A stretch of DNA of 41,016 bases from an uncultured Paraglaciecola sp. (GTDB lineage: Bacteria > Pseudomonadota > Gammaproteobacteria > Enterobacterales > Alteromonadaceae). Below are positions 4,369-41,016 of the stretch, in pieces. The translations under genes were made by a program, and so were the position numbers. How positions within the stretch are numbered: the stretch's first letter is position 1; every line of letters begins with the position of its first letter. Location of the stretch: contig NZ_CAJXPA010000017.1 in NCBI RefSeq assembly GCF_913058035.1, positions 1 through 41,016 on the forward strand, in the 5' to 3' direction. The notes under the pieces were generated by a model. The model saw only the letters and a program-made list of their open reading frames with translations. It was not told the origin of the DNA and searched no databases.

Positions 4369-4421
4369 GTACAAAAACATTACCTCCTTTTAATGAATAA
4401 TAAAGAAGTACGAGTAAGTTA

Positions 4422-5756: not shown

Positions 5757-5767
5757 ACCACTTCTAA

Positions 5768-7897
<2,130 letters not shown>

Positions 7898-8230
7898 ATG
7901 GACTGGTTAAATTCTATACTAGCTCAGCTTAGTCAACTGACACAACCTTACAACAGTGAAATAGCCTTAACATTTTTGGCTACAATTTTAGTCGTATATG
8001 GTGATACGTTTAATAAACATATTAAACGTATGATCAGCCCTTATCATTTTGTCATCCGCACTTTCATATTTGTGCTGATCTGTGCTTTTGGGTATGGACT
8101 GTTCGTCGTGTTTGTTACACCTTATGTAGAAATGCTTATTTTGTGGGTCCCATACTTGTATCGAGGAACCGCTATTATTTCAATTTTTTTAGTCTTAGGA
8201 TATTTGGCTGAAAATAGGCGTTATATTTGA
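7898..8230 (+). CDS. DUF3392 family small membrane protein
   Basis: A 110-residue protein with about three hydrophobic segments (roughly residues 20-36, 50-70 and 82-102), so probably an inner-membrane protein. It resembles the DUF3392 family commonly found directly after ligA in Alteromonadales and Shewanella. It begins on the base after the ligA stop, with no intergenic space. No catalytic motif is visible and the function is unknown. It appears to be the last gene of the smc-zipA-ligA run. Confidence 0.85.
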   Translation: MDWLNSILAQLSQLTQPYNSEIALTFLATILVVYGDTFNKHIKRMISPYHFVIRTFIFVLICAFGYGLFVVFVTPYVEMLILWVPYLYRGTAIISIFLVLGYLAENRRYI

Positions 8231-8372
8231 TCTAGCGTTATAAGACGAAGTCTATTGAGAGCTTGGGAAAAGCCAAGAAAGAGCCTAGGGAGAGAGTAGA
8301 AAGAGTTATATGCTTGATTTTTTATTAGTATTAACTTTACCCTTTGCTTTAATCTGAGTGATGCTATTTATG

Positions 8373-8509
8373 CTAGTGGAAATTAAAATTGCATTCATAG
8401 ATGTTAAAAACGTGCTTGGATTATTTATCGACAACTCGGACCTATTAAACCGAGCTCTATACAATTAAAATTCAACACAATAGCAGTCAATATCTCCGGT
8501 GTTAGTCTA
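8373..8509 (+). pseudogene. possible decayed EAL-domain fragment
   Basis: Two plus frames joined by a frameshift read AFIDV, then AWIIYRQL and TIAVNISGVSL. This order resembles the AFIPVAE, DRWVI and VNLSxxSL segments of EAL phosphodiesterases, with missing sequence between. No start, no later EAL motifs and no stop-free frame remain. The opposite strand also has an open stretch, so this is a tentative reading. Confidence 0.22.
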
Positions 8510-8834
8510 AAAGTAATGGCTATGACTATTCCATCACTACCTAATGCGAGTTTAGTCGGCTCTCGATTTTCTTAGTAAACAGAAACACCAGTCTCAACTC
8601 GTCTTACCTTTCTAACTTAGGCAATGGTCTGCGTTTATCTCTAAACGTTATTTTTAATGGCACTCTCATATAATATATTTCAACAATATGTCGCCTGATA
8701 TCTGATCTTTCCATAAAAATAATACCTTACGTTACCGCGCAGATTTATATCTGTCGGATCTTTTCTGTTATTAGGTGTTTTAATTCTTTAAGACCAACCT
8801 TAATAACGCCGAATTTGTTGCATCAGCAACCGAG

Positions 8835-8874
8835 ATTATTTTATCGCAAATATGTTATTTTTCGATAAAATAAT
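8835..8874. promoter_or_regulatory. 12-bp inverted repeat, possible operator
   Basis: Perfect arms ATTATTTTATCG (8835-8846) and CGATAAAATAAT (8863-8874) with a 16-base loop, about 225 bases before the TIM-barrel gene. The only nearby downstream unit is the sugar-oxidation operon, so a regulator-binding or RNA-structure role is conceivable. There is no T-run for termination. Confidence 0.35.
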
Positions 8875-9098
8875 TAACATAAAATTAACTATTGAATATA
8901 TTGGCAACGATATTCACACATAAACTGTAAAATTTTTTGTGAGACATTAGACACTCGCACAGTTGAAGTCAGTGTTTTATAGTATTTCTTATCTTTTGAA
9001 TTTTACTCCATTGAAACAATTTTTTGTTTTCTGCTAGGTTTATGCTTTGGGCATTAAACATATTGTTGTCGGCATTCAAGTAAAAAAGGTGACTGTAA

Positions 9099-9986
9099 AT
9101 GAATAATCCTCGTCGTAACCTGCTTAAAGGTATCATACTTAGTGGAGCCGCTATGAGCAGTAATGTTGCTTTTAGCCTTGCTGCAAACACCAGTAAGACC
9201 AAATTGTTGCCACTTAAAGGCCGTATCAATCATTCTGTTGCACGCTGGACATATGCAGATTTATCTATCGAAGAATTATGCAAGGTGGTCACTTCAATAG
9301 GTTTTTCGGCCATCGACTTAGTGGGTCCCAAAGACTGGCCAATGCTCAAACGTTATGGTATCGAATCGTCTATGTGCAACGGTGCCGAAATCAATCTGGT
9401 TGACGGCTGGATACATCCGCAGTTCCATGACGAATTAGTTGAACGTTATATCCAGCATATTGATTTGTTGGCTGAAGCAGGATACACCAACCTAGTTTGT
9501 TTTAGTGGAAATGCTAGGGGCATGACCAAAGAAGTAGGACTTAACAATGCGATGAAAGGTTTGCAGCGCATATTACCCTACGCTGAGCAAAAAGGTGTGG
9601 TAGTACAAATGGAGTTATTTAACAGCAAAATTGATCACCCAGATTATATGGCTGACACTTCAGCTTGGGGTGTCGCTTTATGCCAACAATTAGATTCCCC
9701 TAATTTTAAGCTGCTATACGACATCTATCATATGCAAGTAAGCGAAGGCGATATTATTCGTACCATTAGAAATCATCATCAATATTTTGGCCATTACCAT
9801 ACAGCTGGTGTACCCGGACGAAACGAAATTGATGACAGTCAAGAGTTACATTATCCGGCTATTGCCCAAGCCATCCGAGAAACTGGTTTTGTAGGGTTTT
9901 TGGCTCAGGAATTTATTCCTACTCCAGATAATCAATCAGACAAAATTGAATCATTACGTCATGCCATTCAAATTTGTGATGTGTGA
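9099..9986 (+). CDS. Tat-exported hydroxypyruvate isomerase-like TIM-barrel protein
   Basis: A 295-residue sugar isomerase/epimerase of the AP-endonuclease-2 TIM-barrel fold, closest in wording to the hydroxypyruvate isomerase (Hyi) family. The N terminus (RRNLLKGIILSGAAMSS) is a twin-arginine-like export signal, which would place it in the periplasm rather than the cytosol where Hyi acts. Likely metal ligands are in QMELFNSK, LLYDIYHMQ, GHYHTAG and AQEFIPT, the usual Glu-Asp-His-Glu set. It leads an operon with a GMC dehydrogenase 45 bases downstream. That context favours a role on an oxidised sugar rather than hydroxypyruvate; the exact reaction is inferred only. Confidence 0.88.
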   Translation: MNNPRRNLLKGIILSGAAMSSNVAFSLAANTSKTKLLPLKGRINHSVARWTYADLSIEELCKVVTSIGFSAIDLVGPKDWPMLKRYGIESSMCNGAEINLVDGWIHPQFHDELVERYIQHIDLLAEAGYTNLVCFSGNARGMTKEVGLNNAMKGLQRILPYAEQKGVVVQMELFNSKIDHPDYMADTSAWGVALCQQLDSPNFKLLYDIYHMQVSEGDIIRTIRNHHQYFGHYHTAGVPGRNEIDDSQELHYPAIAQAIRETGFVGFLAQEFIPTPDNQSDKIESLRHAIQICDV

Positions 9987-10031
9987 ATATGAAATTACTT
10001 AATTCAGTCAATACAGTAGACGGAGCTAAAT

Positions 10032-11717
10032 GTGGCGAATAATCATTATGACGCAATAGTTATCGGATCAGGGATCAGCGGAGGCTGGGCCGCTAAGGAA
10101 TTAACCGAGAAAGGCCTTAAAGTATTAATGCTTGAGCGTGGCAAAAATATAGAGCACGTCAAAGATTATCAAAATATGCACAAGGAAACTTGGGATTATC
10201 CACATCGAGGTCGTCCTACTCAAGCAATGAAGAAAGACTTTCCAGTACTTAGCCGCGACTACCCTTTAAATGAAGCCACTTTTGGCATGTGGGCTAATGA
10301 ACAAGAGTCACCTTATATTGAAAAAAAACGTTTTGACTGGTACCGCGGTTACCATGTTGGTGGACGCTCTTTATTATGGGGACGGCAGAGTTATCGCTTG
10401 AACACTGAAGATTTTATGGCTAATGCCAAAGAAGGGATCGCTGTCGATTGGCCAATTCGCTATGAAGACATCGCTCCTTGGTACGGTTATGTTGAACGCT
10501 TTGCCGGTATAAGTGGTAATCGTGATGGTCTGAATGTACTGCCTGACGGTGAATTTCAACCGGCTATGTTACTAAACTGTGTTGAAAAAGATATATCAGC
10601 ACGTATTACAAAAGCGTTTAAAGGTTCAAGACACTTGATTTCAGGTCGAACCGCTAATATGACTGAGGATAAGCCCGAGCAAGGACGCACTAGTTGTCAG
10701 TACCGCAATAAGTGCTGGTTAGGTTGTCCCTTCGGTGGATTCTTCAGTACCCAATCATCAACACTGCCTGCAGCGGTTAAAACCGGTAATCTGACATTGC
10801 GACCGTTTTCGATTGTCAAAGAAATTTTGTATAACAAAGACAAAAAGCGCGCCACAGGTGTCTCTGTAATTGATGCACAAACCAACGAAATCTATGAATT
10901 CACTAGTAAAATCATATTTGTAAACGCTTCATCCTTTAATTCAACATGGTTGCTGATGAATTCGGCCACAGATGAATGGGAAGGCGGTTTAGGAAGCAGC
11001 AGTGGTGAATTGGGACACAATGTCATGGATCACCACTTCAGGGTTGGTGCTTCGGCCACAGTGGAAGGCTTTGACGACAAATATTATTATGGACGTCGTC
11101 CAAGCGGTTTTTACGTTCCTCGTTTTCGCAACTGGGGGAGTGATAAACGCGATTATTTACGTGGTTTCGGTTATCAAGGATCTGCTAGTCGCCAAGGTTG
11201 GAAACGAGATGTTGCAGAAATGGGCATAGGAGCCGATCTAAAAGACGCCATAAGCGAACCCGGTCCTTGGCAAATAGGCATGACCGCTTTTGGTGAAATG
11301 TTACCCGAACACAGCAATCGAATTTATTTGGATCCTAACAAAACTGATAAATGGGGACTACCGGTATTGGCCATGGATGTTGCTATAAGAGAAAACGAAC
11401 TGCGCATGCGAAAAGATATGCAACAAGATGCTGTCGATATGTTTGAGTCTGCTGGCTTAACAAACGTGCAAGGATTTGAAAAAGAATATTATCCAGGTAT
11501 GGGTATACACGAAATGGGAACAGCACGTATGGGACGCGATCCCAAAACGTCTGTACTCAATGCACATAATCAGGTTTGGGATGCACTTAATGTATTTGTT
11601 ACTGATGGTGCTTGTATGACGTCTGCATCTTGTGTCAATCCTTCTTTGACCTATATGGCTTTGACTGCCAGAGCAGCAAGCTTTGCGGTAGATGAGTTAA
11701 GAAAAGGTAACTTATAA
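10032..11717 (+). CDS. GMC-family FAD-dependent sugar dehydrogenase, large subunit
   Basis: A 561-residue glucose-methanol-choline oxidoreductase. The FAD-binding GSGISGGWAAKEL motif is at about residues 12-24. A cysteine-rich stretch (CQYRNKCWLGCPFGG) is typical of the glucoside 3-dehydrogenase/gluconate dehydrogenase branch. Near the C terminus are the catalytic His493 (GIHEMGTARMG) and Asn536 (CVNPSLT). The start is GTG at 10032, supported by GGAG six bases upstream. There is no signal peptide of its own; the next gene encodes a Tat-signal small subunit, so the pair is probably co-exported. By family it would oxidise a sugar or glycoside, likely at C3, passing electrons to a carrier. No cytochrome c gene is present in the operon. 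Confidence 0.92.
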   Translation: MANNHYDAIVIGSGISGGWAAKELTEKGLKVLMLERGKNIEHVKDYQNMHKETWDYPHRGRPTQAMKKDFPVLSRDYPLNEATFGMWANEQESPYIEKKRFDWYRGYHVGGRSLLWGRQSYRLNTEDFMANAKEGIAVDWPIRYEDIAPWYGYVERFAGISGNRDGLNVLPDGEFQPAMLLNCVEKDISARITKAFKGSRHLISGRTANMTEDKPEQGRTSCQYRNKCWLGCPFGGFFSTQSSTLPAAVKTGNLTLRPFSIVKEILYNKDKKRATGVSVIDAQTNEIYEFTSKIIFVNASSFNSTWLLMNSATDEWEGGLGSSSGELGHNVMDHHFRVGASATVEGFDDKYYYGRRPSGFYVPRFRNWGSDKRDYLRGFGYQGSASRQGWKRDVAEMGIGADLKDAISEPGPWQIGMTAFGEMLPEHSNRIYLDPNKTDKWGLPVLAMDVAIRENELRMRKDMQQDAVDMFESAGLTNVQGFEKEYYPGMGIHEMGTARMGRDPKTSVLNAHNQVWDALNVFVTDGACMTSASCVNPSLTYMALTARAASFAVDELRKGNL

Positions 11718-11719
11718 TT

Positions 11720-12313
11720 ATGAAAAGACGTGATTTACTAAAAATGATTGTCGCAGCTACTGGTACTGCATTGGTAGGCTCTAATGTCTTGGCTTACACA
11801 GTACTTCCCATGGAAGACAATCAGGGTAGTGGTTATTCAATAGACGACGTGGCATTTTTTAATGAAGTGGGCGAAAGCATTATTCCGCGAACTGATACGC
11901 CTGGAGCAAAAGATGCCAATGTGGGCAGTATGATTGCTATATTACTTGCAGATTGTTATTCACCAGACCAGCGAAAATTTTTTAATGAGGGTATGTTGGC
12001 TATAAAGTCTAATGCAAAAAGTCGTTATAGCAAAGAATTCGTGTTGTTAACACCTGAACAACGTTTAGCCTTACTTTCATCGTTGGATGAGGAAGCTAAC
12101 AGACATAATAAAAAAATGTTTTCAATCAAAACTGAAATCAATGCAAACGAGTCAGCACTGCCTCACTATTTTTCAATGTTTAAACAATTGGTATTGTTTA
12201 GTTTTTTTTCATCTGAAGTAGGCGCAACTAAAGTACTCAGGTACGAAGCGGTACCCGGATTTTACGACGGCGAAATACCTTATAAAAAGGGTGATAAAGC
12301 CTGGGCGACTTAA
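11720..12313 (+). CDS. Gluconate 2-dehydrogenase subunit 3 family protein (small subunit)
   Basis: A 197-residue protein with a twin-arginine-like signal (KRRDLLKMIVAATGTALVGS) and the family pattern FFNEVGESIIPRTDTPGAKDA just after it. Members pair with GMC flavoproteins and are thought to carry the Tat signal for the heterodimer. It starts two bases after the GMC stop, so co-translation is likely. The C-terminal part (SEVGATKVLRYEAVPGFYDG) is the conserved family ending. No cofactor motif is seen. Confidence 0.9.
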   Translation: MKRRDLLKMIVAATGTALVGSNVLAYTVLPMEDNQGSGYSIDDVAFFNEVGESIIPRTDTPGAKDANVGSMIAILLADCYSPDQRKFFNEGMLAIKSNAKSRYSKEFVLLTPEQRLALLSSLDEEANRHNKKMFSIKTEINANESALPHYFSMFKQLVLFSFFSSEVGATKVLRYEAVPGFYDGEIPYKKGDKAWAT

Positions 12314-12396
12314 AAGCAGCGTCTTGTCGTAGTAAAAATAAACGTAAAAATAGATGTAAAATCAGAATAAACCTTGTTTCAAAAAGGACGTAGATA

Positions 12397-13185
12397 GTGA
12401 GTATTAATAAAACACCAATCAATATTTTGTTATTTATAGGCATCATGATAGGTGTTAATACCTCTATCGGTACCTATAGCATTGCAAAAGATGTTCAAGC
12501 GCAGCGAAAAAAAATGGCACAAAAAAGTGAAGTATGGAAACCCGTCCCAGCGTTAGTAACCACGTTTGATGGAAAAGCCCCTTCAGATGCCACGGTACTT
12601 TTTAATGGTGAAGACCTCAGTGCCTGGCAGACTTTAAAAGGTGGTGAAGCTGATTGGTCTTTGACAGATGGCAGTTTTACGGTAAACCCTGGTAGTGGTG
12701 ATATCAAAACTAAGCAACGTTTCTGCGACATACAATTACACATGGAATGGAAAACACCTACCGAGGTAAAAGGACTCAAAGGTCAACAGCGTAATAACAG
12801 TGGTATATTTTTGCAACAACGTTACGAAATTCAAATATTAGATTCTTTTAATAATCCAACCTATGCCAATGGTCAGGCCGCCAGCGTTTATAAGCAAAGC
12901 ATCCCGCTGGTTAATGTTATGCGTCCTGCAGGTCAATGGCAGTATTATGATATTATTTATACAGCCCCACGTTTTGATGGCACAACACTAACAAACCCAG
13001 CTTTCGTTACTGTTATACACAATGGCGTATTGGTGCAAAATCACGTAAAAATTCAGGGTAAAACGGAATGGATAGGCTCTCCAAGCTATGAAGTTCATGG
13101 TTGTGCTCCTCTACAGCTTCAAGATCACGGCAATAAAGTGAGCTTTCGTAACTTATGGGTTAGGCACCTGAACACTCAAAACTAA
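12397..13185 (+). CDS. DUF1080 / 3-keto-disaccharide hydrolase family protein
   Basis: A 262-residue secreted or membrane-tethered protein. It has an N-terminal hydrophobic segment (about residues 8-26) followed by a concanavalin-like domain of the DUF1080 family (Pfam 3-keto-disaccharide hydrolase). Recognisable parts are DLSAWQTLKGGEADWSLTDG, RNNSGIFLQQRYEIQILDSF and the ending VSFRNLWVRHL. Family members cleave or modify glycosides already oxidised to the 3-keto form, which fits the GMC dehydrogenase upstream. The start is GTG at 12397 with AAGGA eight bases before it. The 83-base gap from the previous gene shows no terminator, so it is probably in the same transcript. Confidence 0.88.
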   Translation: MSINKTPINILLFIGIMIGVNTSIGTYSIAKDVQAQRKKMAQKSEVWKPVPALVTTFDGKAPSDATVLFNGEDLSAWQTLKGGEADWSLTDGSFTVNPGSGDIKTKQRFCDIQLHMEWKTPTEVKGLKGQQRNNSGIFLQQRYEIQILDSFNNPTYANGQAASVYKQSIPLVNVMRPAGQWQYYDIIYTAPRFDGTTLTNPAFVTVIHNGVLVQNHVKIQGKTEWIGSPSYEVHGCAPLQLQDHGNKVSFRNLWVRHLNTQN

Positions 13186-13725
13186 TCTGTTATTCAGAGC
13201 CATTGCTTATGATCCATAGCTGTTTTATTTATGATTGGACTAATAATTTTGATCCTATTTTACTCAGGCCTTTTCAGTGATTTCTGACATCACATATATA
13301 TTCTTTATTAGCTATTACATATTTTAACGTGAAGTAATTGATCTAAACGCACTCAACACACTCTACATAGCCAACACACTCCTCATAGCCCGAACATGAA
13401 TCTATTGTGTTCATTATTGATAGACTTTCCTAATATTTGGGTAATTAGTCTCTGAAATATATATAATTTGCATGTCAATCTTATATCAATAGCTTCAGGT
13501 AAAGTTTGGAGTGGAGAGAAAACCGTTTTCTAATCTTGATTTACTATTCAATTTATAATTTGGGTTATCCTAATTTTTTAGTCACATCATCAAATCTTAC
13601 TTGTTAATATTAGATAATAATAAGTCGATACCTTCGAACGGTATCTATCAATTATATTCTTTTAACTTTTGGATTAACCTCAGAACAATTTATTGTGAAT
13701 TTACGCAAGGTGTAGAATTAGGTAG

Positions 13726-14040
13726 GCTAAAAAAAACCAAATAACCACTGTAAATTTTACATATGTCGAGTGTTTTAGTTTTATTGGTATTACATCGTTT
13801 TATGTCAGCTTTAGCCAACAGGCATTTCTAGAAACGCAGTTTCAATATCACTCCGATGGCTTGCTTAAGGATGATGAACCCATTAATGAACTTATCTGTT
13901 GGTAACGTTTGTTAACTACTGAACAGCAAAAATTTTATCGTTTGTGCATCAAAAAAATTGGTTTTACCAAGGGAGTGAACTTCCAAGCCGATAAAAAGTT
14001 GCATATCAATATTATTGTCTTAGAACAGAAAAAGAAATGA
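13726..14040 (+). pseudogene. unidentified decayed coding fragment
   Basis: One plus frame reads about 59 codons (including SQQAFLETQFQYHSDGLL), a TAA at 13903-13905, then 44 more codons in the same frame (RLLTTEQQKFYRLCIKKIGF and onward) to TGA at 14038. The amino-acid composition looks protein-like on both sides of the stop. No convincing start was found and I do not recognise a family, so this is a tentative relic. Confidence 0.3.
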
Positions 14041-14122
14041 AGCCCGCTGCGCTGCAAATTTGGGTTTTTATGTTTTAGGTTGCTAAATTGCCCAAAAATT
14101 ATTAATAACACATTTTGGGTTG

Positions 14123-14143
14123 ACCGACACGTGAAGTGCCGGT
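14123..14143 (-). terminator. hairpin downstream of the CocE-like hydrolase gene
   Basis: Arms 14123-14130 and 14136-14143 pair over 8 bp with a 5-base loop. On the minus strand the one imperfect pair is a G:U, so the stem is fuller in that direction. It lies just past the hydrolase stop. A second weaker stem (14091-14097 with 14113-14119) follows. There is no clear U-tract. Confidence 0.33.
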
Positions 14144-14159
14144 GAGGAGGGTGTTGATA

Positions 14160-15944
14160 CTAATGCAACGGTAGCTGCACTGTGCCTGTTAGGTCCACTG
14201 CGCTAGGGATTCGTGAAAAGCCAAGTGTATATTGTGGGTGAAAACCGTAAAGCATCAGGCCGATTTGATCGCCTGAGCGCAATTGAGTACTGATCCCGAT
14301 TAGCTCCGTTTGACGTGCGCCAGTGCCACGCATCGGCAAGATCTGATCATGCAATAGTTTTGGGCTCAGCTGTCCAAGGCGCATCACTCCTAGTCCAACA
14401 AAAACACGCGGGTCAAGTGTGGTTTCACCTTCTATGTTAAAGTTTGCTAGAGGTATACCGGCGAGGATTTGATCACTGCTTGCTTGATACAGCGGTACAA
14501 AGCGTGGTGCAGTTCCAAGTTCTGCCAATAAAGCTGGCGGTTGAGTTTCGACAAGTTCGGTCAGCAGAATGGCCACTCGTTCTGGCTCGATAGTTACCAA
14601 ACCAATCAGCGCTTTAGTGAGTAAACTGACCGTGTCAGCAGAAAGTCGACTCAGTACCTCGGCCTGAGTGGCAGGGTTAAGCTTGCGAAGCAAATTGAGA
14701 ATTACGTCAACTGATGGCGGACCAACCAGCAAATTGCCACTAGAAAAATACTGCATTAAACCACCCTTAGGCACCTCATCGCTAATCACACCTTGACTTC
14801 GCTTTTGGGTCAGGCAAACACGTGGGATAGATATATTACGCTTTAGTTTACGTAGTTTGCCGTTGAGGAAAGTGTAAGACAAATCGGCGATAGTGTAACG
14901 GGTATCGCCGCACTGCACATCATTGAAAAAGCCCCCATAGTTGGTCGTTCCTCCGTCAGAACCGTCCTGAAAAGCTGGTAATATATGCCCACCCTTAGTA
15001 ACAAGCAGATACGCATCATTTCCAGCATTACGCAGACACTCGTAATTCCAATTGGCCTCGTTTAAATTGAATAGGGTGTCGTTGACCCCTTGAATAAATA
15101 AAGCGTCTACTTTTGGTACACCAAGGCCATCAGGCTTGCAATATGCTTTAAGACCGTTACTAGCAAGGCGTCGGACACCCTCTTCACTTGTTGTCCCAGT
15201 TAAGGATTCTGCGTATGCCTGCGTTACCCAAGGCGCCTGATTCTCTCTCGCAAGACCACTTAGTAATGATAGCCATAACGTTTTCGGAACGCGCTCTGGG
15301 CTCAAGCTGTAAGGCAAGTCGTGCCATGTCATCGCCGGTACTAACGCGTCAAAACGCGGATCGATACTGGAGCCAATCAGCTGAAACCCGCCGCCGTAAC
15401 TTAGGCCTATGCCACCCACTAGTGGATCACCTTTGAAATATGCTAAGTGTGGCGACATAATACCTTCAGCAAAATCAAGGAGAGTCTGAACGTCGCGGCC
15501 TTCAATAGCTGGGTCTTGAGAATTGGCTTGACCGCCGCTATCACCAAATCCGCGTTGATCAAAAGTGAGTACAAAGTAGCCTGAATCCCAAGCCTTGCGA
15601 GCCGTTTTAGTGAGCGAGTCTGCTTCACTCAGATCGGTGGAGCGGCTGCCGCCCCATCCGTGGCTATACATTAGAAGGGGGGCTGGCTGGCCTTGTTTCA
15701 GAGTTGGTTGATATATTGTTACTGCGATTTCTGTGCCATCAAATGAGGTAACGGTTAGGTTATATTTAAGCTGTGATAGCGCCGGTCCACCGCCATTAAT
15801 AGCTTTGACTACTTCTCTCTGATTTTTTTTATTTTTGCCTGCTGCATCAGCTTGCGAAGTGGTAAAGCCAAATAGTACAACACTGGCAATTACGAGACTC
15901 AAAGCAGCGCCACGAGCGATTCTAAGGTAGGGATTACAAGTCAT
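14160..15944 (-). CDS. Secreted CocE/S15-like alpha/beta hydrolase
   Basis: A 594-residue hydrolase with an N-terminal signal peptide (hydrophobic core about residues 13-28, end near ADA). The alpha/beta fold shows the oxyanion segment HGWGGS (95-100), the nucleophile Ser182 in GLSYGGG, a probable acid Asp289 (GVNDTLF) and His320 (KGGH). This matches the X-Pro dipeptidyl peptidase/CocE group, which cleaves peptides or esters. The last 100 residues look like the family's C-terminal beta-sandwich. Residues about 410-490 form an unusual helical, leucine-rich segment between the two. A strong GGAGAC site precedes the ATG. Sampled rows have roughly 48-52% GC against 33-40% nearby, suggesting acquisition by transfer. 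Substrate unknown. Confidence 0.85.
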   Translation of the reverse strand: MTCNPYLRIARGAALSLVIASVVLFGFTTSQADAAGKNKKNQREVVKAINGGGPALSQLKYNLTVTSFDGTEIAVTIYQPTLKQGQPAPLLMYSHGWGGSRSTDLSEADSLTKTARKAWDSGYFVLTFDQRGFGDSGGQANSQDPAIEGRDVQTLLDFAEGIMSPHLAYFKGDPLVGGIGLSYGGGFQLIGSSIDPRFDALVPAMTWHDLPYSLSPERVPKTLWLSLLSGLARENQAPWVTQAYAESLTGTTSEEGVRRLASNGLKAYCKPDGLGVPKVDALFIQGVNDTLFNLNEANWNYECLRNAGNDAYLLVTKGGHILPAFQDGSDGGTTNYGGFFNDVQCGDTRYTIADLSYTFLNGKLRKLKRNISIPRVCLTQKRSQGVISDEVPKGGLMQYFSSGNLLVGPPSVDVILNLLRKLNPATQAEVLSRLSADTVSLLTKALIGLVTIEPERVAILLTELVETQPPALLAELGTAPRFVPLYQASSDQILAGIPLANFNIEGETTLDPRVFVGLGVMRLGQLSPKLLHDQILPMRGTGARQTELIGISTQLRSGDQIGLMLYGFHPQYTLGFSRIPSAVDLTGTVQLPLH

Positions 15945-20041: not shown

Positions 20042-20660
20042 AAAGACTTAATCTAATTAATTTTGGTAATTAAAACAGAAATTATCACTCTATATATCAA
20101 TTATTTAACTTTAATTTTCGATCCTTACGTGGAACGTGGCAAATGATTACGTTTATTTACTTTTTTTTGCTGGGTAATTGGCCTCTTTTTGAAGGCTTAC
20201 TCATTTGGGTATATACCTAAGTTCCACATGGTGTGTAGAGGACTACGATAAGGATGATGAATGACCTGTGGCTATTGCTAAAACAGTGATTGATCAGGGG
20301 ATTTTTTGAGTTTTTAGCCAGAAACATATTACATAATTTTTTGTTTAATTAAGAATTGAATATTTTGGATTTTGGTTACGCCTCTATTTTTGTCAGCAGA
20401 GCCTACTAAATAATATCTGCATCTGGAAAATGTTATCCGCACAATGATGTTGTTAGGCTGATTATATTAAACAGTTAACAATACATCATTAATAATGTTG
20501 AGAGTAAGCTATGTATTCCCACAACATCATCATCATGGTGCTCATCTAATTAAAAGCTTGCTCAATTAGATAAATTTCAGACAAGCTTTAGTTAGGCCTT
20601 AGTTAGGCCTTAGTTAGGCCTTAGCTAGGCACTTCTTAGAAGACCTGTTACCCACAAGTT
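20042..20660. other. intergenic region between puuD and glpT
   Basis: 619 bases without a gene. The left part must hold the glpT promoter. A palindrome GGTATATACC lies at 20208-20217. Near puuD an inverted pair AAAGCTTG/CAAGCTTT (20553-20560 and 20582-20589) precedes a tandem 11-bp repeat. Confidence 0.5.
20588..20631. repeat. tandem 11-bp repeat after puuD
   Basis: Three perfect copies of TTAGTTAGGCC (20588-20598, 20599-20609, 20610-20620) and a fourth altered copy beginning TTAGCTAGGC at 20621. The array ends 30 bases from the puuD stop codon. The unit is one helical turn long. Confidence 0.9.
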
Positions 20661-31666: not shown

Positions 31667-32230
31667 ATGCACTCGATAAGAATACTTGCGGTAGATGATC
31701 AAATATCTAGCCTCATTGCGTTAGAAGATGTGTTAAGCGATATTGACGCGCATATTATAAAAGCAACCTCTGCAAAAGAGGCATTGTTGATCATGTTAAA
31801 ACAGTCAATTGATTGTATTTTATTAGATGTCAGTATGCCTGATATGGACGGTTTTGAATTTTTAAAAACGTTATGTAATGCGCCAGCTCATTCGCAAATT
31901 CCTGTCATTATGATCACCGGTAAGGTCTTCAGTGAAAATGAAACATTAAAAGCCTATAAACTTGGTGCTGTGGACTTTTTGCTTAAACCTGTCGAACCTG
32001 AAACTGTATATCGTAAAGTAGGTTTTATCGTGCGCCAAGCCCAGCGCATTAATGCTGTTAAGGGTATAGAGAAACAATTGAATTCTCTGCAAAAAGATCT
32101 TATCAAGCCTCTCGAAAGCCTCATAAAAGAAGATGTATCAAACAGTAATCAAAGTTTTAAACTATCTGAAGTAACACAAAAATTGAAACATCTACATAAT
32201 GCTTGGCAGGTCTTAAATGAAAGTAAATAA
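31667..32230 (+). CDS. Response regulator: receiver domain plus C-terminal helix
   Basis: A 187-residue cytoplasmic signalling protein. The receiver domain (about 1-125) has the acidic pair Asp10-Asp11, phospho-acceptor Asp54 (ILLDVSMPDMDG), Thr84 and Lys107 (LLKPVE). The C-terminal 60 residues are predicted helical and carry no DNA-binding, GGDEF or other output domain, so it probably acts by protein contacts. It overlaps the next gene by 14 bases, implying translational coupling with the CheR-kinase that may phosphorylate it. Confidence 0.92.
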   Translation: MHSIRILAVDDQISSLIALEDVLSDIDAHIIKATSAKEALLIMLKQSIDCILLDVSMPDMDGFEFLKTLCNAPAHSQIPVIMITGKVFSENETLKAYKLGAVDFLLKPVEPETVYRKVGFIVRQAQRINAVKGIEKQLNSLQKDLIKPLESLIKEDVSNSNQSFKLSEVTQKLKHLHNAWQVLNESK

Positions 32231-35200
32231 CACCTCCGATAATAAAGAAAAAGATGGTCAACAAATTGAGCCTGACGTTGCTGTCACATCAAAACAACCA
32301 ACAGTATCCAAGAATGCCTCAGCTGAAAGTGATGTTAGTTTATATGCAAGTAAACTACCCATTGCGCTGGTTGAAGATTCTAAACACACAACTAGAGAAA
32401 ATCAGCAATTTGGTTTGGGGAATCTAGACGCAAAGGTCAGCGAGTTTTATGAAATATTAATTTTATTAAATAGCCGCTTTGACCTTGATTTCTCGCAGTA
32501 CAAACCTTCAATGATCACTCGACGCCTGGAACGCAGAATATATTATCAAAACTCAGCCTCATTAAAAAATTACATCAGTATTTTGCTATCTAATAATGAT
32601 GAATTAGAAGCGTTATATTATGATTTATTAATTGGTATTACTCAGTTTTTTCGCGACCCTGATGCCTATGATTCTGTCAGAATATTGATACCTAATTTAC
32701 TTGCGCAGTTTAAGGATGAGCCAGAAATTAGAATTTGGGTTTCAGCCTGTGCTTCTGGGCAAGAAGCTTATAGCATGGCCATGATGTTCGCAGATATCAT
32801 GGGCAAGGACCCTCATGGTAATAAACCGTTTAAAATATTTGCTACTGATATTCATCAAAAGTCTATACATCATGCCGCGGCGGGAGTTTATGATGAAGAG
32901 GCCATACAGTTTGTGAGTCTTGAGTATAGAGCTCGATTTTTTACACCATTGCTTTCAGGGCAATATCAGATCTTGCCTAAAATCCGTAAGACAATTGTGT
33001 TCGTCCAACATAACCTTTTGAAAGATCCAGCTTTCACACGGATCCATTTTGTTTCTTGTCGCAATCTGTTGATATATTTGAATGCTGCAGCCCAAAAAAA
33101 AGTGCTGAGCTTATTGTCATTTTCGCTGATGGAAAAAGGGCTATTATTCATAGGTCCTAGTGAAACGATTGGTTCACACGTAAGCGACTTTGAGAAAGTT
33201 GATGTGGTAAACCTTCTATTTTGTAAAGTTCGGAACACACTGAGACCCAATGGATTATCAGCGTTATTGCGTAATAGCTCAGCAGCAAACATGCCTTTTC
33301 CTAGAAGTGCGGTAGATACCCCCAAAAACAGTGTTAAAAGTAAAAAAGCACTGGAGATGTTGTTACAAAGATATGTGCCAACAAGTGTTTTGGTAGACAC
33401 AAAAGGTCATATATTGCATGTGTTCGGTGACGCCGGAAAATATCTGACACTTAACATTGGTGCTGCATCATTAATCATCACCTCTATGGTGGACGATAAG
33501 GCAAAATTTGTACTGTCCCAGATGTTGCACAGCATTGTGAAACACCAAAAACCTATTAAAGCCAAAGCAATAAAGGGTTTTAATAACTGCGAAGCAGTTG
33601 ATGTTTCGATGAGTGTATTATCTGAGGCCTCAAGTGATTCGGATTACATTATCATTTCTTTATCTGAGGCAGCTGCTACTCACACCGATAATACCAAAGC
33701 ATCTGGGATGCTTGATTTAAGTATTCCGAATCAAATGACGCCCAACGTGAACATCAAGATTAAGGAATCTGAAGAGAAACTGGTATTTACCCTAGAATGT
33801 CTACAAACAACTATTGAAGAATTGGAAACCAGTAATGAAAAATTGCAGGCCGCCAATGAAGAATTGATGTCTTCTAACGAAGAGTTACAAAGCTCCAAGG
33901 AAGAGATGCAGTTGATCAACGAGGAATTATTATCGGTTAATGCTGAATTTCAACAAAAAGAGCGGGAGCGTGAAGAACTTATATCAGATGAACTCAGCAT
34001 TATTGACGAATCAAATTTAGGCATTTTATTTTTAGATGCAGATCTTAAAATTCGTAAATTTTCACCTATGGCAGGTCAACTCTTTAGCCTTGTTGCAAGT
34101 GATTTTGGTAGGCCTTTTATCGCGGCTAAAGGATGTGTGGTCCAAGAAATACAGGGCGATGTATATAAAATTTTTCATGGTGGTGAACTAATTGAAAAAG
34201 AAGTAAAAGATGAGAGTGGATTGTTTTATCTGGTGCGTATTAATGCACACACATCAAATGTAAAAGGCGCCGAAGATTTTACTAACAAGGGTGTGGTAAT
34301 TACCTTTGCTAATGTGTCTAAATTACATGCCACAAAAAAAGCCTTAGAAAGATCCCAAATCCGATTCAACAATACCTTAAATGCTGTGTCTGACGGTTAT
34401 TTTGAATGGATATTAGAAACGGATGAACTTTACTTTTCACCTTTATTTTATCAAAAACTGGGGTATGGCGATAATCGCCCCAACCTTGATGATCTTTTGG
34501 GGCCACATGCCAAGGAATTTAAGCTTAAGTTTTCAAAAACACAGCTTAGCGGATTAAAAGTTGAAGAGGTTTTGTCTTTTATATCAGCTGATGGAGAGGT
34601 TTTTTGGATGATATGTAAAGGTGAGTTTCAGCTAGATGAGCAGCGCCAACAAACAAAGTTAATAGGTATTACTATCGACTTTTCCACTCAAAAAGCAGTG
34701 GAAAACACACTTCAGGCCCAGGCAGTTGAGTTGGAACGTTCTAACAATCTTCTTGAAAAGTTTGCCCACATTGTTTCGCACGACATGAAAGCACCTATAA
34801 GACACATTCAAAATTATCTGGTTTTCTTACAAGAAGCCATCGAAAGCAAAGATAATAAAGCAATAATACAAGAAATGCAGGGCATTCAAAAAAGCACGGA
34901 TATCTTAACCGAGTTAATCGACGATGTGATTACCTATTCGCGAGTGACATCTGAAAAAAAACAAATGGGTGATGTAAATATCAATAATATTTTAGATTAC
35001 GTTATCAATATTATGACGCCCACCATAGAGTCCAAAAACATAAAGATAAAGCGAGATGATTTCCCATCGATTAAAGGTGATAAATCATTGTTGACCCATT
35101 TACTGCAAAACTTAATTAGTAATGCCTGTAAATACAACGATAAACAACAGCCACTGATCTTTATCCTATATTCAGAGGTGGATCAACATCACATCATCAC

Positions 35201-35408
35201 AATCACTGATAACGGTATTGGTTTTGATCAGGCGAATACAAATAAAATTTTTGACCCTTTCACTCGCTTAGTTACCAAAGATCAATTCGAAGGAAGCGGC
35301 ATCGGTTTGTCTATATGTAAGACTGTCGTTGAACAACATAAAGGCTCTATTCGAGCAAAATCTAAGGTCGGTGAAGGAGCCTCTTTCACAGTCACACTTC
35401 CGTTTTAA
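32217..35408 (+). CDS. CheR methyltransferase-PAS-histidine kinase fusion
   Basis: A 1063-residue soluble sensor. After a disordered N terminus of about 70 residues comes a CheR domain (about 75-325) with YKPSMITRRLERRIYY, the SAM-site stretch VSACASGQEAYSMAM and FVSCRNLLIYLN. A PAS-like region (about 375-500) follows. Then comes a strong Glu-rich coiled coil (519-583) and two PAS domains (about 590-705 and 710-830). Next is HisKA with His855 (IVSHDMKAPIRH), and an ATPase domain with Asn969, Asp998 (TDNGIGFD) and GSGIGLSI. The CheB methylesterase domain that usually precedes CheR in this class is absent. No membrane helices. There are receiver genes on both sides. Confidence 0.93.
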   Translation: MKVNNTSDNKEKDGQQIEPDVAVTSKQPTVSKNASAESDVSLYASKLPIALVEDSKHTTRENQQFGLGNLDAKVSEFYEILILLNSRFDLDFSQYKPSMITRRLERRIYYQNSASLKNYISILLSNNDELEALYYDLLIGITQFFRDPDAYDSVRILIPNLLAQFKDEPEIRIWVSACASGQEAYSMAMMFADIMGKDPHGNKPFKIFATDIHQKSIHHAAAGVYDEEAIQFVSLEYRARFFTPLLSGQYQILPKIRKTIVFVQHNLLKDPAFTRIHFVSCRNLLIYLNAAAQKKVLSLLSFSLMEKGLLFIGPSETIGSHVSDFEKVDVVNLLFCKVRNTLRPNGLSALLRNSSAANMPFPRSAVDTPKNSVKSKKALEMLLQRYVPTSVLVDTKGHILHVFGDAGKYLTLNIGAASLIITSMVDDKAKFVLSQMLHSIVKHQKPIKAKAIKGFNNCEAVDVSMSVLSEASSDSDYIIISLSEAAATHTDNTKASGMLDLSIPNQMTPNVNIKIKESEEKLVFTLECLQTTIEELETSNEKLQAANEELMSSNEELQSSKEEMQLINEELLSVNAEFQQKEREREELISDELSIIDESNLGILFLDADLKIRKFSPMAGQLFSLVASDFGRPFIAAKGCVVQEIQGDVYKIFHGGELIEKEVKDESGLFYLVRINAHTSNVKGAEDFTNKGVVITFANVSKLHATKKALERSQIRFNNTLNAVSDGYFEWILETDELYFSPLFYQKLGYGDNRPNLDDLLGPHAKEFKLKFSKTQLSGLKVEEVLSFISADGEVFWMICKGEFQLDEQRQQTKLIGITIDFSTQKAVENTLQAQAVELERSNNLLEKFAHIVSHDMKAPIRHIQNYLVFLQEAIESKDNKAIIQEMQGIQKSTDILTELIDDVITYSRVTSEKKQMGDVNINNILDYVINIMTPTIESKNIKIKRDDFPSIKGDKSLLTHLLQNLISNACKYNDKQQPLIFILYSEVDQHHIITITDNGIGFDQANTNKIFDPFTRLVTKDQFEGSGIGLSICKTVVEQHKGSIRAKSKVGEGASFTVTLPF

Positions 35409-35420
35409 CTGGAGGATTTT

Positions 35421-35852
35421 ATGATAGTTAACAATCGTCACTTTTTCATTCTCCATGGTGAGGATGATGACTGTGATATTAGAGTAATGGCGAGAATTTT
35501 AAAGAAAATTAAGTATCAAGGAGAATACCGTAATATCGTCATAGGCTCTGATTTATTGACATGGATGAATGATTTAAATAGGACTAAGTTACCAGATTTA
35601 TTGATTTTGGATATTGGCTTGCCAGGTGCCAATGGTAAGGAAATATTAGCTTCGTTACGTCAAGAAGATAGAACCATGAGTATTCCAATTATTATGATGT
35701 CTGGTTCTAATTCACAACGTGATTATCACGAATGTATATCTCTTGGTGCTAATGCTTACATTCAAAAAAATTTAGACTCAAGTAGTTTAGAGTTTAGCAT
35801 TAAATGTTTTATTGAAGGTTTTATGTGCTTAAACGCACAAATCTTTTTTTAG
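35421..35852 (+). CDS. Stand-alone receiver domain protein (Rcp1-type)
   Basis: A 143-residue single receiver domain, cytoplasmic. It has the acidic pocket GEDDDCD (about 13-19), phospho-acceptor Asp64 (LILDIGLPGANG), MMSGS and Lys in AYIQKN. Proteins of this type often pass phosphate to or from bacteriophytochrome-like or PAS kinases with HisKA domains like the one upstream. It starts 12 bases after the kinase stop with a strong GGAGGA site, so it is in the same operon. Confidence 0.92.
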   Translation: MIVNNRHFFILHGEDDDCDIRVMARILKKIKYQGEYRNIVIGSDLLTWMNDLNRTKLPDLLILDIGLPGANGKEILASLRQEDRTMSIPIIMMSGSNSQRDYHECISLGANAYIQKNLDSSSLEFSIKCFIEGFMCLNAQIFF

Positions 35853-35914: not shown

Positions 35915-38900
35915 ATGAATGTAAAAGAGTTAAGTTCACAAGACATCCTCAAAGCATTGCAGGCATGGAAAGATGAATCTAATGTGATAGATCATAAGGG
36001 ACTACTTAAGGTGTTGAGGGCCTACCGCAACGGTAGCTTTTCCACCCGTTTGCCAGATAATCAAACGGGTATTGCTGGCGAAATTGCTAGGGCACTGAAC
36101 GAGTCTATTGAATTGAATCAACTGTTACTTAAAGAGTTTAGTAGAGTAGGCAAAGCGGTAAGTAGAGAAGGCAAACTGAGCCAACGAGTATCAATTAATG
36201 GGGCAACAGGTCACTGGGCTGAAACCGTTAACGCTTACAATAGCACCATAGACGGCATGGCCGAGCCTGTCGGTGAGTTTGGCCGAATAGTGGCTGCTAT
36301 TGCTAAAGGTGATCTAACCGAACCAATGGCCCTAGAAATTGAAGGTCGCCCATTAAAAGGTGAGTTTTTAAGGGTCGCTAAAATCACCAATCAAATGATT
36401 AACTTACTTAATTCATTTTCTTCAGAAGTCACAAGAGTATCACTAGAAGTAGGAACCGACGGTATTTTAGGAGGGCAAGCCAGAATTAGAGGTGTATCTG
36501 GGGTGTGGTTAGAGCTAACCAATAGTGTAAATGGTATGGCTGATAATTTGACTGGCCAAGTTCGTAATATCGCGACCGTCGCTACAGCGGTCGCCAATGG
36601 CGACTTATCACAACGTATTACAGTGGAAGCCAAAGGTGAAGTGCTGCAACTGAAAGAAACGTTGAATACTATGGTAGAAAGGTTAACCCAGTTTTCGTCT
36701 GAAGTCACAAGAGTAGCGCGTGATGTGGGCACTGCTGGTAAGTTAGGTGGAAGTGCTGATGTGCGAGATGTTTCAGGCGTATGGCAAGAACTGACCAATA
36801 ATGTTAACGGCATGGCTTATAACCTCACTTCTCAAGTACGCAACATTGCTACTGTGGCAACAGCGGTAGCAAATGGCGATTTGAGTAGAAAGATAACCGT
36901 TGATGCTCAAGGTGAAATGTTAGAGTTGAAAGACACCATCAATACTATGGTTGACAGATTAACTCAGTTTTCTTCCGAAGTGACCCGTGTTGCCCGTGAG
37001 GTAGGCACAGATGGGCAGTTAGGTGGTAAGGCTAAAGTGCCTGATGTAGCGGGCGTGTGGCAAGATCTAACCAATAATGTAAATAATATGGCTGATAATT
37101 TAACCAGCCAAGTGCGAAATATTGCAACAGTGGCCACCGCTGTTGCTTACGGAGATTTAAGTCGAAAGGTCACGGTAGATGCTAAAGGCGAAGTGTCAGA
37201 GCTTAAGACAACCATCAATACCATGGTAGATAGTCTGACCCAATTTTCTTCTGAAGTCACCCGAGTTGCTCGAGAAGTAGGTACTGAAGGAAAGTTAGGT
37301 GGAAAAGCCGAAGTAAGAGGTGTCGCTGGTGTTTGGCAAGATTTAACGAACAACGTTAATGGCATGGCAGATAATTTAACAGGGCAAGTACGAAACATAG
37401 CAACAGTGGCGACTGCAGTAGCGAACGGTGACCTTTCACAAAAAATCACTGTAGATGCTCAAGGTGAAGTACTCGAGTTAAAAGACACCATCAATACTAT
37501 GGTTGATAGATTGACTCAGTTTTCCTCTGAGGTAACCCGAGTTGCTCGTGAGGTAGGAACAGATGGGCAGTTGGGTGGACAGGCTCAAGTACCTGATGTA
37601 GCCGGTGTATGGCAAGATTTAACTAACAATGTAAATGGTATGGCCGCTAATCTAACTGGGCAAGTTCGTAATATCGCTACAGTCGCAACGGCGGTAGCAA
37701 ACGGTGATTTAAGCCAGAAAATTACCGTTGAGGTAAAAGGAGAAGTTCTAGAATTAAAAAATACTTTAAACAACATGGTAGAAAAGCTTAAAAAATTCTC
37801 TAGTGAAGTCACAAGAGTTGCACAAGAAGTAGGTACTGATGGCGTACTAGGAGGAAAAGCCAATGTAGAAAATGTGGCGGGCGTTTGGCAAGAATTGACC
37901 AATAACGTAAACGGTATGGCGGACAATTTGACCAACCAAGTGCGCAATATCGCTACAGTAGCAACAGCCGTGGCCAATGGTGACTTGTCGCAAAGTATTA
38001 CAGTAGAAGCTAAAGGCGAAGTCTTAGAGCTTAAAAGTACGATTAATACTATGGTCGAAAAATTGACACAGTTCTCATCTGAGGTCACACGTGTTGCCAG
38101 AGAAGTAGGTACAGAGGGGGTATTAGGAGGTAAAGCAAATGTTGTTGGGGTAGGGGGGACATGGCAAGACCTGACCAACAACGTAAACGGTATGGCTGAT
38201 AATTTAACTAGCCAAGTACGTAACATCGCTACTGTTGCCAAAGCAGTGGCAGAAGGCGATTTATCACAACGGATCACTGTTAAAGCCAAAGGGGAAGTAG
38301 CTGAACTAAAAGATACTATAAACACTATGGTAGAAAAGCTCACTCAGTTCTCATCAGAAGTGACCCGAGTAGCTCAGCAAGTAGGAACTGAAGGTATCTT
38401 AGGCGGTAAAGCTGAAGTTCAAGACGTAGCCGGTGTATGGCAAGACCTAACCAATAATGTAAACGGCATGGCAGATAATTTGACCAATCAAGTGCGTAAC
38501 ATTGCCACAGTCGCTACAGCCGTCGCCAACGGGGATTTAGGTCAAAAAATCACCGTTGATGCTAAAGGTGAAATTCTTGAATTAAAAAATACTATTAATA
38601 TCATGGTAGATAAACTGACTCAGTTTGCTTCAGAAGTAACCCGCGTCGCCCAAGAAGTAGGAACTGACGGCATACTTGGTGGTAAAGCTGAAGTTAAAAA
38701 CGTGTCGGGTGCTTGGCAAGACTTAACCAATAACGTTAATGGCATGGCAGATAATTTGACCAATCAAGTGCGTAATATCGCTTCTGTAGCTACCGCTGTA
38801 GCCAACGGAGACTTAGGCCAAAAAATTACTGTTGATGCTAAGGGTGAGATCCTAGAATTAAAAGATACCCTCAATACTATGGTCGACAGATTAACCCAAT

Positions 38901-41016
38901 TTGCCTCTGAGGTAACACGTGTTGCTCAAGAAGTAGGTACGGATGGTATTTTAGGTGGCCAGGCAGAAGTAGCTGGTGTGACCGGCGCCTGGGGTGACTT
39001 AACCCGCAATGTAAACCGCTTAGCCAACAACCTTACTGATCAAGTAAGAGATATCTCTCGAGTCACTTCTGCTGTGGCAAAAGGTGATCTGGAACAGAAA
39101 ATTACAGTGGAGGCACAAGGTGAGGTACTGGAATTAAAAAATACCATCAATTCAATGACTGACACCTTGTCATTGTTTGCTAATCAGGTGACTTATGTTG
39201 CTAAAGAGGTCGGTGATGAGGGTAAACTTGGTGGTCAAGCCGATGTACCAGAAGCCCAAGGTATATGGCGAAATCTTACGGATAATGTAAATGAGCTGGC
39301 GGACAACCTGACTCGTCAAATACGTGCAATTTTAACGGTAGTAACCGATGTTACTCAAGGTAACCTTACCGGCAGTATTGATGTCGCGGCAAAAGGTGAA
39401 GTAGAGACATTAAAAAACGGTTTGAACCAAATGATCCTGACATTGAAAGAAACGTCGGATATCAACAATGAACAAGATTGGTTAAAAAGTAATTTATCTT
39501 ATTTTGTTCGTTTGATGCAAGGTAATAGCAACTTGCAGGCTCTGGCCGATGTAGTAATTACCAAAGTATGTACAGTGCTAAATGTGCAACATGGTGTGTT
39601 CTATGCTTTAGAGAGCAACTTTAATAAAGACATCGATAAGCCAATGTTGTACATGTTGGCTAGCTATGCTTTTCACGAACGAAAATCAGTTGCCAACCGC
39701 TTTGAGATTGGCCAAGGATTGGTAGGACAAGCGGCTCTCGAAAAGAAGCGTATTCTGGTACACAATATACCAGGTGATTATATTCAAGTAAGCTCAGGAC
39801 TAGGTAATGCCCAACCATTAACAGTAGTGGTATTGCCGGTCGTATTCGAAAATGAACTATTAGGGGTGCTGGAATTAGGCTCATTTTCACCTTTCACTGA
39901 AATTAGCCTTAACTTTCTTGATCAGCTAATGGAAAGCCTAGGAATTGTCGCCAATGCGGTGGTTGCCAGTGCACAAACAGAGAGTTTACTAACTGAATCT
40001 CAATCATTATCTGAAGAACTACAAAAACAACAGGAAGAGTTGAAGAACAGTAATGTGAAACTTGAAACACAAGCGAAAAACTTACAAGACTCAGAAGCAA
40101 AACTAAAAAATAAACAAGAAGAGCTACAACAAACAAATGAAGAGTTAGAAGAAAAGTCACGTGTATTAGCGGACCAAAAACACGAAGTTGAAAGTGCCAA
40201 GATACAACTCGAAGAAAAAGCACAACAGCTGGCTATTTCATCGAAATATAAGTCTGAATTTTTAGCTAATATGTCCCATGAATTAAGAACACCACTGAAT
40301 AGCTTAATGGTGTTGTCTGATGGTTTACGAAAAAATATAGATAAAAACTTTACCGATAAGCAAGTAGAAAAAATGGCAACAATTCATGATTCTGGTATTG
40401 AATTGTTGGAATTAATAAATGAAATTCTTGACTTGGCCAAAATTGAAGCTGGAAAAATGTTAGTTCAGGTGGGAGATATTTTCCTACAGCGCATTCAAAA
40501 TTGGGCTGCGCGTGGTTTCAATCAGATGGCTGAAAATAAAGGGATTACATTTGAAACTGAGCTCGATCCGTCACTACCTAAAACAATATTGACCGATGAA
40601 AAACGCCTACAACAAGTGATTAAAAACTTCATTTCTAATGCAATTAAATTTACTAATAAAGGTCAGGTGACCCTGAGTATTTATCACGCAAAAACAGGTT
40701 GGACACAAAATAATAGGCATTTAAATGAAGCATCTACTGTTGTAGCCTTTAGCGTGACTGACAGCGGTATCGGTATTCCTGCTGATAAACATCAAGTTAT
40801 TTTTGAGGCATTCCAACAAGCTGATGGGAGCACCAGTCGAAAGTATGGCGGCACAGGATTAGGGTTATCAATTAGTCGAGAAATTGCGCATTTACTTGCG
40901 GGTGAAATTATTTTAGAGAGTGGGGTAGGTAAAGGCAGTTCATTTACCCTATTTATACCGCATACTTACCCAGAGCAAGCTGATGATGATGGCAATAGCC
41001 GCTTGCTTGATTACAG
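35915..41016 (+). CDS. Giant poly-HAMP GAF histidine kinase, cut by window edge
   Basis: An open frame of 1700 codons from the ATG at 35915 with no stop before the window end. Residues about 25-1180 are a HAMP array: an N-terminal HAMP, a divergent 93-residue unit (75-167), then 11 units of exactly 92 residues (168-1179). Each unit joins a divergent HAMP ([14 protein letters not shown]) to a canonical HAMP ([19 protein letters not shown]). A GAF domain (about 1185-1350), a long coiled coil, and HisKA with His1455 ([11 protein letters not shown]) follow. The ATPase has Asn1575, Asp1616 (DSGIGIP) and GGTGLGLS. No membrane helix is seen, so it is cytosolic. The layout resembles fungal group III (Nik1/Os-1) kinases; receiver domains probably follow beyond the edge. 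Confidence 0.93.
36416..39451 (+). repeat. 11 tandem 276-bp coding units (poly-HAMP)
   Basis: The Phe of the FSSEV/FASEV/FANQV motif recurs at 36416, 36692, 36968, 37244, 37520, 37796, 38072, 38348, 38624, 38900 and 39176, exactly 276 bases apart each time. Middle units are nearly identical in protein but differ at many third codon positions. Units 10 and 11 are the most divergent. Confidence 0.97.

Follow-up and report, generated by a model that had tools for sequence, protein, structure and literature searches.

Among described bacterial proteins, AskA and AskB of Myxococcus xanthus and Amb07 of Sorangium cellulosum are, by build and judged from their descriptions, the closest to the gene analysed here. 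This gene lies at 35915..41014 on the + strand of a 41,016-nucleotide stretch of DNA from an uncultured Paraglaciecola sp. (contig NZ_CAJXPA010000017.1; G000:C17:1-41016), the whole of which is called the window below, and almost certainly encodes a soluble poly-HAMP (group III-like) hybrid histidine kinase. PMC7643160 gives AskA, AskB and Amb07, like the window kinase, a poly-HAMP region longer than that of NIK1, a kinase and several receivers, and reports helix-turn-helix-like stretches overlapping the HAMPs of this type of protein. The same paper maps the contact between AskA and AskC to the AskA receiver domain. AskC is the partner of AskA and AskB, whereas a CheR-PAS-kinase fusion is encoded beside the window kinase (PMC7643160).

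The fungal group III kinases (CaNik1p, DhNik1p, TcsC and Bos1) share with the window kinase tandem HAMP pairs and a HisKA-HATPase-receiver order, the 92-residue length being stated for CaNik1p, whose nine HAMPs form four 92-residue pairs and one single (PMC3848655 and PMC11253588). Likened by these descriptions, they have fewer units than the window kinase, as a sequence-only reading of the window had already held. They carry one receiver and are not known to have a GAF domain. Group III is also defined by being encoded by a fungus, and the window gene lies on a bacterial contig.

In RsbK of Bacillus cereus, the signalling helix is methylated by RsbM, which is encoded in the same operon; RsbK resembles the window kinase in its GAF-signalling helix-kinase-receiver build and in having a methyltransferase gene nearby (PMC4574943). 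It differs at the N terminus, which is CHASE3 plus HAMP rather than a HAMP rod. A Pfam scan of the window kinase gave no CHASE3 match, and because this sensor is absent we did not file the protein as RsbK-type, although by analogy it may work like one. RsbM is CheR-like.

In the Protein Data Bank (PDB), the array has homologues in 9trk_A (E 2e-87), 9trj_A (E 1.2e-46) and Aer2 3vol_A (E 1.3e-4). The first two show a Gcn4 fusion of a poly-HAMP fragment from another histidine kinase, whose N-cap and following units are the same as the window's by sequence; our literature search found no publication on them. Aer2 of Pseudomonas aeruginosa has soluble chained HAMPs like the window kinase, and these adopt either of two packing states, which give opposite outputs (PMC3570549). 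Unlike the window kinase, Aer2 has five HAMPs, a PAS-heme domain and a chemoreceptor output, and no kinase; no match to the methyl-accepting chemotaxis protein (MCP) signalling domain was found at E 0.001 in the Pfam scan of the window kinase.

The window kinase and its HAMP array

The reading frame runs for 1700 codons and is still open at the contig end. Its largest part consists of 11 di-HAMP units (36389..39424; this and all features below are on the + strand), each exactly 92 residues long, which follow one another ungapped through residues 159-1170. When the first 1230 residues were compared with themselves at lags of 20-199, self-identity was maximal at lag 92 (64.5%), followed by 61.8% at lag 184 and only 13.3% at the next best lag. 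The array was also visible in the DNA by Tandem Repeats Finder (period 276, 36516-38958). In the Pfam scan, PF00672 HAMP scored 344 bits over 11 stretches and PF18947 HAMP_2 330 bits over 12. The exact periodicity claimed from the letters was thus borne out, and HAMP models, the check proposed for it, do match the units.

Ahead of the 11 units stands a diverged di-HAMP unit of 97 residues, the N-cap (36098..36388, residues ~62-158), which was detected by a hidden Markov model (HMM) built from the window's own units; HAMP_2 covers its residues 98-144 with 35.2 bits. A HAMP-like stretch at the very N terminus (35993..36097) is proposed from its position and from a weak alignment (i-E 6.3) of a window canonical half-unit with the first HAMP of PDB 9trk; Pfam gave no HAMP match to these residues (~27-61). 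The kinase has 23 firmly assigned HAMPs, and the total is likely to be about 25. The extra N-terminal HAMP of the earlier tally is putative.

Downstream of the array we found a GAF domain (39527..39946, residues 1205-1344; PF13185 54.5 bits, PF01590 43 bits), a predicted signalling helix of 100 residues between GAF and the phospho-acceptor histidine (39977..40276, a coiled coil as judged by sequence), a HisKA domain (40250..40453; PF00512 59.8 bits) with the phospho-acceptor assigned by motif to His1455, and HATPase_c (40592..40963; PF02518 95.9 bits). No membrane segment is evident by hydropathy, the highest 19-residue Kyte-Doolittle mean being 1.69 at residue 1301, inside GAF, which agrees with the soluble kinase first proposed. 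A second contig of the same genome (G000:C111:2-1312) opens in frame and encodes 437 amino acids with three receiver domains, which share 77% identity with the end of the homologue in genome G565 (428 aligned positions). Its product is probably the rest of the window kinase. Between the two contigs, which do not overlap, lies a short unseen stretch, and their sequences were kept unjoined. Of the domains that mark a poly-HAMP hybrid kinase, HisKA and HATPase_c are encoded in the window and the receivers on C111. The GAF domain, the long signalling helix between array and kinase and the three receivers all go beyond the sequence-only reading.

It is very hard to credit that the copy number is an assembly artefact. 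The assembly is a draft in 348 contigs, its contamination being estimated at 5.48%, which leaves room for error. However, the window units have a mean base identity to one another of 68% and a maximum of 80%, so short reads can separate them, and 90 genes carry intact arrays of 5-15 units, six of those genes in genomes listed with one contig. Synonymous codon agreement among inner units was 0.396, with 0.388 expected from codon usage. Because the units have diverged in DNA and synonymous agreement is at expectation, the copies appear old and resolvable, and an assembly echo is unlikely. Single inner-unit pairs exceed the synonymous expectation by up to 0.14. A recent expansion of the window array was considered and set aside, there being no general sign of it over all inner pairs. 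Contamination of the contig was ruled out by an SMC-like gene, present in 22/22 genomes of the genus and up to 82% identical in a congener, which makes the contig genus-typical. At the other contig end (window 880-7897), a cluster of genes with SMC, ZipA and NAD-dependent DNA ligase domains is likely a core-genome anchor.

Unit number, step and helix length across the family

A pattern scan of bacterial genomes gave at least 561 confirmed places with such units. The census used the best 80 of the 561 by likeness to the query, a choice biased toward window-like units; the titles among these 80 name Actinomycetota, Cyanobacteria, Verrucomicrobia, Planctomycetes, Acidobacteria, Myxococcales, Alphaproteobacteria, a Flavobacterium and others. 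At E 1e-15, units were present in 24/398 sampled genomes of the window's phylum, its own genome included. Nearer the window, the array was found in 6/395 sampled genomes of the family and in 1/22 of the genus, the window's alone. Since it stands alone in the genus and is rare in the family, the window kinase gene was probably acquired. A four-unit stretch was matched in 173/72,556 plasmid records, 84 of the 173 being called conjugative or mobilizable (these are matches to the array, not to kinases as such).

Unit numbers, counted with the N-cap, were compared in 90 intact genes, which include the window and its G033 relative. From the census, 66 of the 80 loci entered, each having array, GAF and kinase in one unbroken gene (L070 was removed by hand, and the rest were cut by contig ends or broken). 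From the phylum search, 22/23 entered, L200 being broken in two frames; L036, in three frames, and the G709 fragments on C18 and C32 were also left out. The commonest numbers were 10 (22 genes), 7 (19), 12 (15) and 8 (10), followed by 11 (6), 13 and 14 (5 each), 9 (3), 5 and 15 (2 each) and 6 (1). The window has 12, and 12 or more were counted in 27/90. Array length, which had been called striking, is therefore ordinary, and the window kinase is a good example of a known, widespread bacterial type; the surprise came from being unaware of the family's abundance. The longest array met was in L036 (G107:C15:112000-130000), where 16 units were matched in a poly-HAMP kinase that sequencing error or decay has broken into three frames (6520-14240); CheR, CheB and a receiver-kinase follow it.

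What is new is first an almost unbroken 92-residue step across the family. The step from the N-cap to the next unit was 97 residues in 79 of the 90 genes, 102 in 4, 94 in 3, 92 in 3 and 98 in 1, but 706/707 of the steps after it were exactly 92, with a single exception of 149. Eight units whose step was not 92 were sampled, and in these the added residues fell within the loop that separates the GDL motif from GE.

The signalling helix follows a rule of its own, varying by heptads or half-heptads, which is also new. Measured between two pattern anchors, its length was 2 mod 7 in 89/93 genes and 5 mod 7 in the other 4. As the genes are related, distinct lengths give the fairer count: there were 11, from 40 to 107 residues, eight of them 2 mod 7 and three 5 mod 7, so that 11/11 fell in two of the seven classes. 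Distinct lengths of control intervals were spread over six of seven classes for GAF (64 genes) and over all seven for H-to-GTGLGL (91 genes) and kinase-to-receiver (45 genes).

The third new observation is a clade-inherited unit number despite turnover of unit identity. On a GAF-kinase tree of the 90 genes, unit number changed 29 times, whereas 200 shuffles averaged 58.6 changes and never gave fewer than 53; with four family members added (94 genes) there were 30 changes, against a mean of 60.0 and a minimum of 52. These trees were quick ones with some long branches, and much of the signal comes from close kin. They show that unit number is inherited by clade, which indicates inheritance and not selection. 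Unit number does change between near kin, because the window has two extra units (7 and 8 of 12) compared with the 10 of G565; apart from these, the units of the two align by position, and the kinase cores are 81% identical.

Gene pairs with equal unit number show a positional match of their inner units when the cores are more than ~70% identical, but not below that level. In the 0.6-0.7 core-identity band (170 pairs), same-position identity was 0.855 and other-position identity 0.856, while units within one protein were 0.898 identical. This higher likeness within a protein may reflect homogenisation or shared constraint. Between the window and G033 the positional match of inner units was not significant (permutation p 0.07), from which we infer unit turnover. 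The comparison of unit number among related genomes, proposed at the outset, has thus given a range of 5-15. Our search of the open-access literature found neither a description of unit number being fixed by clade nor one of CheR next to poly-HAMP kinases.

The family makes it testable why HAMP chains are so long. Natural length variants are available, such as the window with 12 units and G565 with 10, and the step rule, the helix length rule and a possible methyltransferase partner are further handles on the HAMP rod. By build, these widespread bacterial kinases are also tied to the fungal kinases targeted by phenylpyrroles and ambruticin.

Proposed relay by the HAMP rod and its alternatives

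The best overall explanation, to which we give a probability of about 0.65, is a cytoplasmic hybrid kinase in which the HAMP rod relays a packing state and restrains the kinase. The protein, presumably dimeric, would consist of a rod of ~23-25 HAMPs, GAF, the signalling helix, HisKA, HATPase and three receivers. In the rod, divergent and canonical HAMP bundles would alternate in one unbroken chain, and their packing state would pass to GAF, the signalling helix and the kinase, holding the kinase restrained until an input shifts the rod. This input would most likely be a GAF ligand, the plainest candidate, and/or a partner protein at the rod, a possibility raised by AskA and AskB, which take AskC. 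Phosphate from His1455 would reach the receivers and, perhaps from there, the two small regulators encoded beside the gene, transfers that are expected of this family. The weakest step is a possible adjustment of the set point through helix methylation by the neighbouring CheR-PAS-kinase.

A phase-locked helical relay is the likely part of this explanation, being the best reading of the strict step and the heptad rule together with the precedents of Aer2 and Nik1. That the rod restrains the kinase, drawn by analogy from fungal Nik1, seems somewhat less secure though still the better bet: deleting all HAMPs from CaNik1p inhibited growth through the HOG (high-osmolarity glycerol) pathway, and DhNik1p lacking four of five repeats was constitutively active (PMC3848655). 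Several results count against a locked relay or fail to speak for it. The relatives L227 and L228 mix 92- and 93-residue steps, five and four of nine in each. Among the controls for the helix rule, H-to-DxxRLxQ was nearly constant (106 in 42/43) and hence uninformative, and one H-to-GTGLGL length, common to 58/91 genes, is also 2 mod 7. An AlphaFold monomer of three units was poor, with a predicted local distance difference test (pLDDT) score of 47.5, and neither supports nor refutes a rod.

The array had been said to be necessarily a sensor, spring or scaffold. A sensor role is not forced, because GAF lies between array and kinase, and we regard it as unlikely that the array itself senses osmotic strength, crowding or strain through altered HAMP packing, with unit number setting gain or threshold. 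The inheritance of unit number by clade would suit such a sensor, as would the role in osmosensing suggested for the HAMP repeats of fungal group III kinases (PMC3848655). GAF, however, offers an ordinary input, and the poly-HAMP proteins AskA and AskB showed no ambruticin VS-3 binding in vitro, the neighbour kinase AskC binding it weakly (PMC7643160). Less probable again is a rod that carries no signal and serves as scaffold or reach, bringing the kinase to DNA or to partners. In its favour, the mrpC promoter was bound by AskB in vitro and AskA came down with this promoter in a pull-down (PMC7643160), and the positional identity of inner units fades with distance, as if they were interchangeable. 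Yet a passive spacer should tolerate small insertions and deletions, and this is difficult to square with 92-residue steps nearly everywhere after the N-cap and with sampled indels confined to one loop.

Beyond the relay and restraint favoured here, it is conceivable, if doubtful, that rod length is a selected heritable setting (of gain, threshold or reach) in which unit number mostly holds within clades while middle units are replaced or homogenised, selection favouring a length and not particular units, to which a CheR-type methylation reset would be added in the proteobacterial branch that includes the window. If true, this would be a methylation-adapting kinase without a chemoreceptor.

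Gene neighbourhood and CheR

Three genes precede the kinase. The first gene of the module encodes a response regulator (31667..32230; PF00072 83.6 bits; 64% identical to its G565 counterpart over 203 positions), the second a CheR methyltransferase-PAS-histidine kinase fusion (32217..35408; PF01739 159.6 bits, PF13596, PF00512, PF02518) and the third a single-domain response regulator (35421..35852; PF00072 60.3 bits). The fusion is 58% identical to the homologue adjoining the G565 poly-HAMP kinase, where the order is response regulator, CheB-CheR-PAS-kinase, poly-HAMP kinase, CheR, CheB. The order of response regulator, CheR-PAS-kinase and poly-HAMP kinase is thus common to both. The window fusion (32217-35408) is without the CheB domain present in its G565 counterpart. 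A CheB remnant before the window CheR was sought and discarded, as only the last 46/270 residues of the G565 query were matched, at the CheR border.

CheR lies directly after the kinase in G033, G749 (L227) and G762 (L228), and CheR with CheB in G107, while no CheR was found adjoining the G709 (L226) array gene. In the family and order searches, CheR adjoins 6/7 array loci (the window, L035, L036, L225, L227 and L228), that of the window being the upstream fusion. Overall, CheR was within 3 kb in 13/94 loci, a count that omits L134, a contig-cut locus with CheR beside it.

Methylation of the window kinase, proposed by analogy with RsbK and RsbM, is tentative, and the wider counts pull the other way. 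Among the 77 loci having 3 kb of flank on both sides, only 11 have CheR within 3 kb, and methylation as a core function was rejected on this count. The CheB and the separate CheR of G565 are missing from the window. Furthermore, CheR was within 2 kb in 11/16 loci of the same GAF-kinase chassis that lack such a rod; since these rodless kinases also have CheR nearby, CheR appears to go with the chassis rather than with the rod.

The window's own genome encodes a second GAF-kinase-three-receiver kinase (L049, G000:C149, 3758-7753), one of these rodless loci with CheR, which has a 4HB_MCP-like (four-helix-bundle) N terminus and is adjoined by CheR and a receiver-kinase. In G033 (L035, 797-4495 and 11260-12822), CheR, a response regulator and a KaiC-like ATPase (PF06745, 404.7 bits) come after the kinase, and a GGDEF-EAL protein is encoded on its opposite flank; for a KaiC-like gene the window's own genome gave only a weak match (E 7.3e-5). 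Elsewhere in the window, an 11-base tandem repeat, TTAGTTAGGCC, is present in about four copies at 20588-20639.

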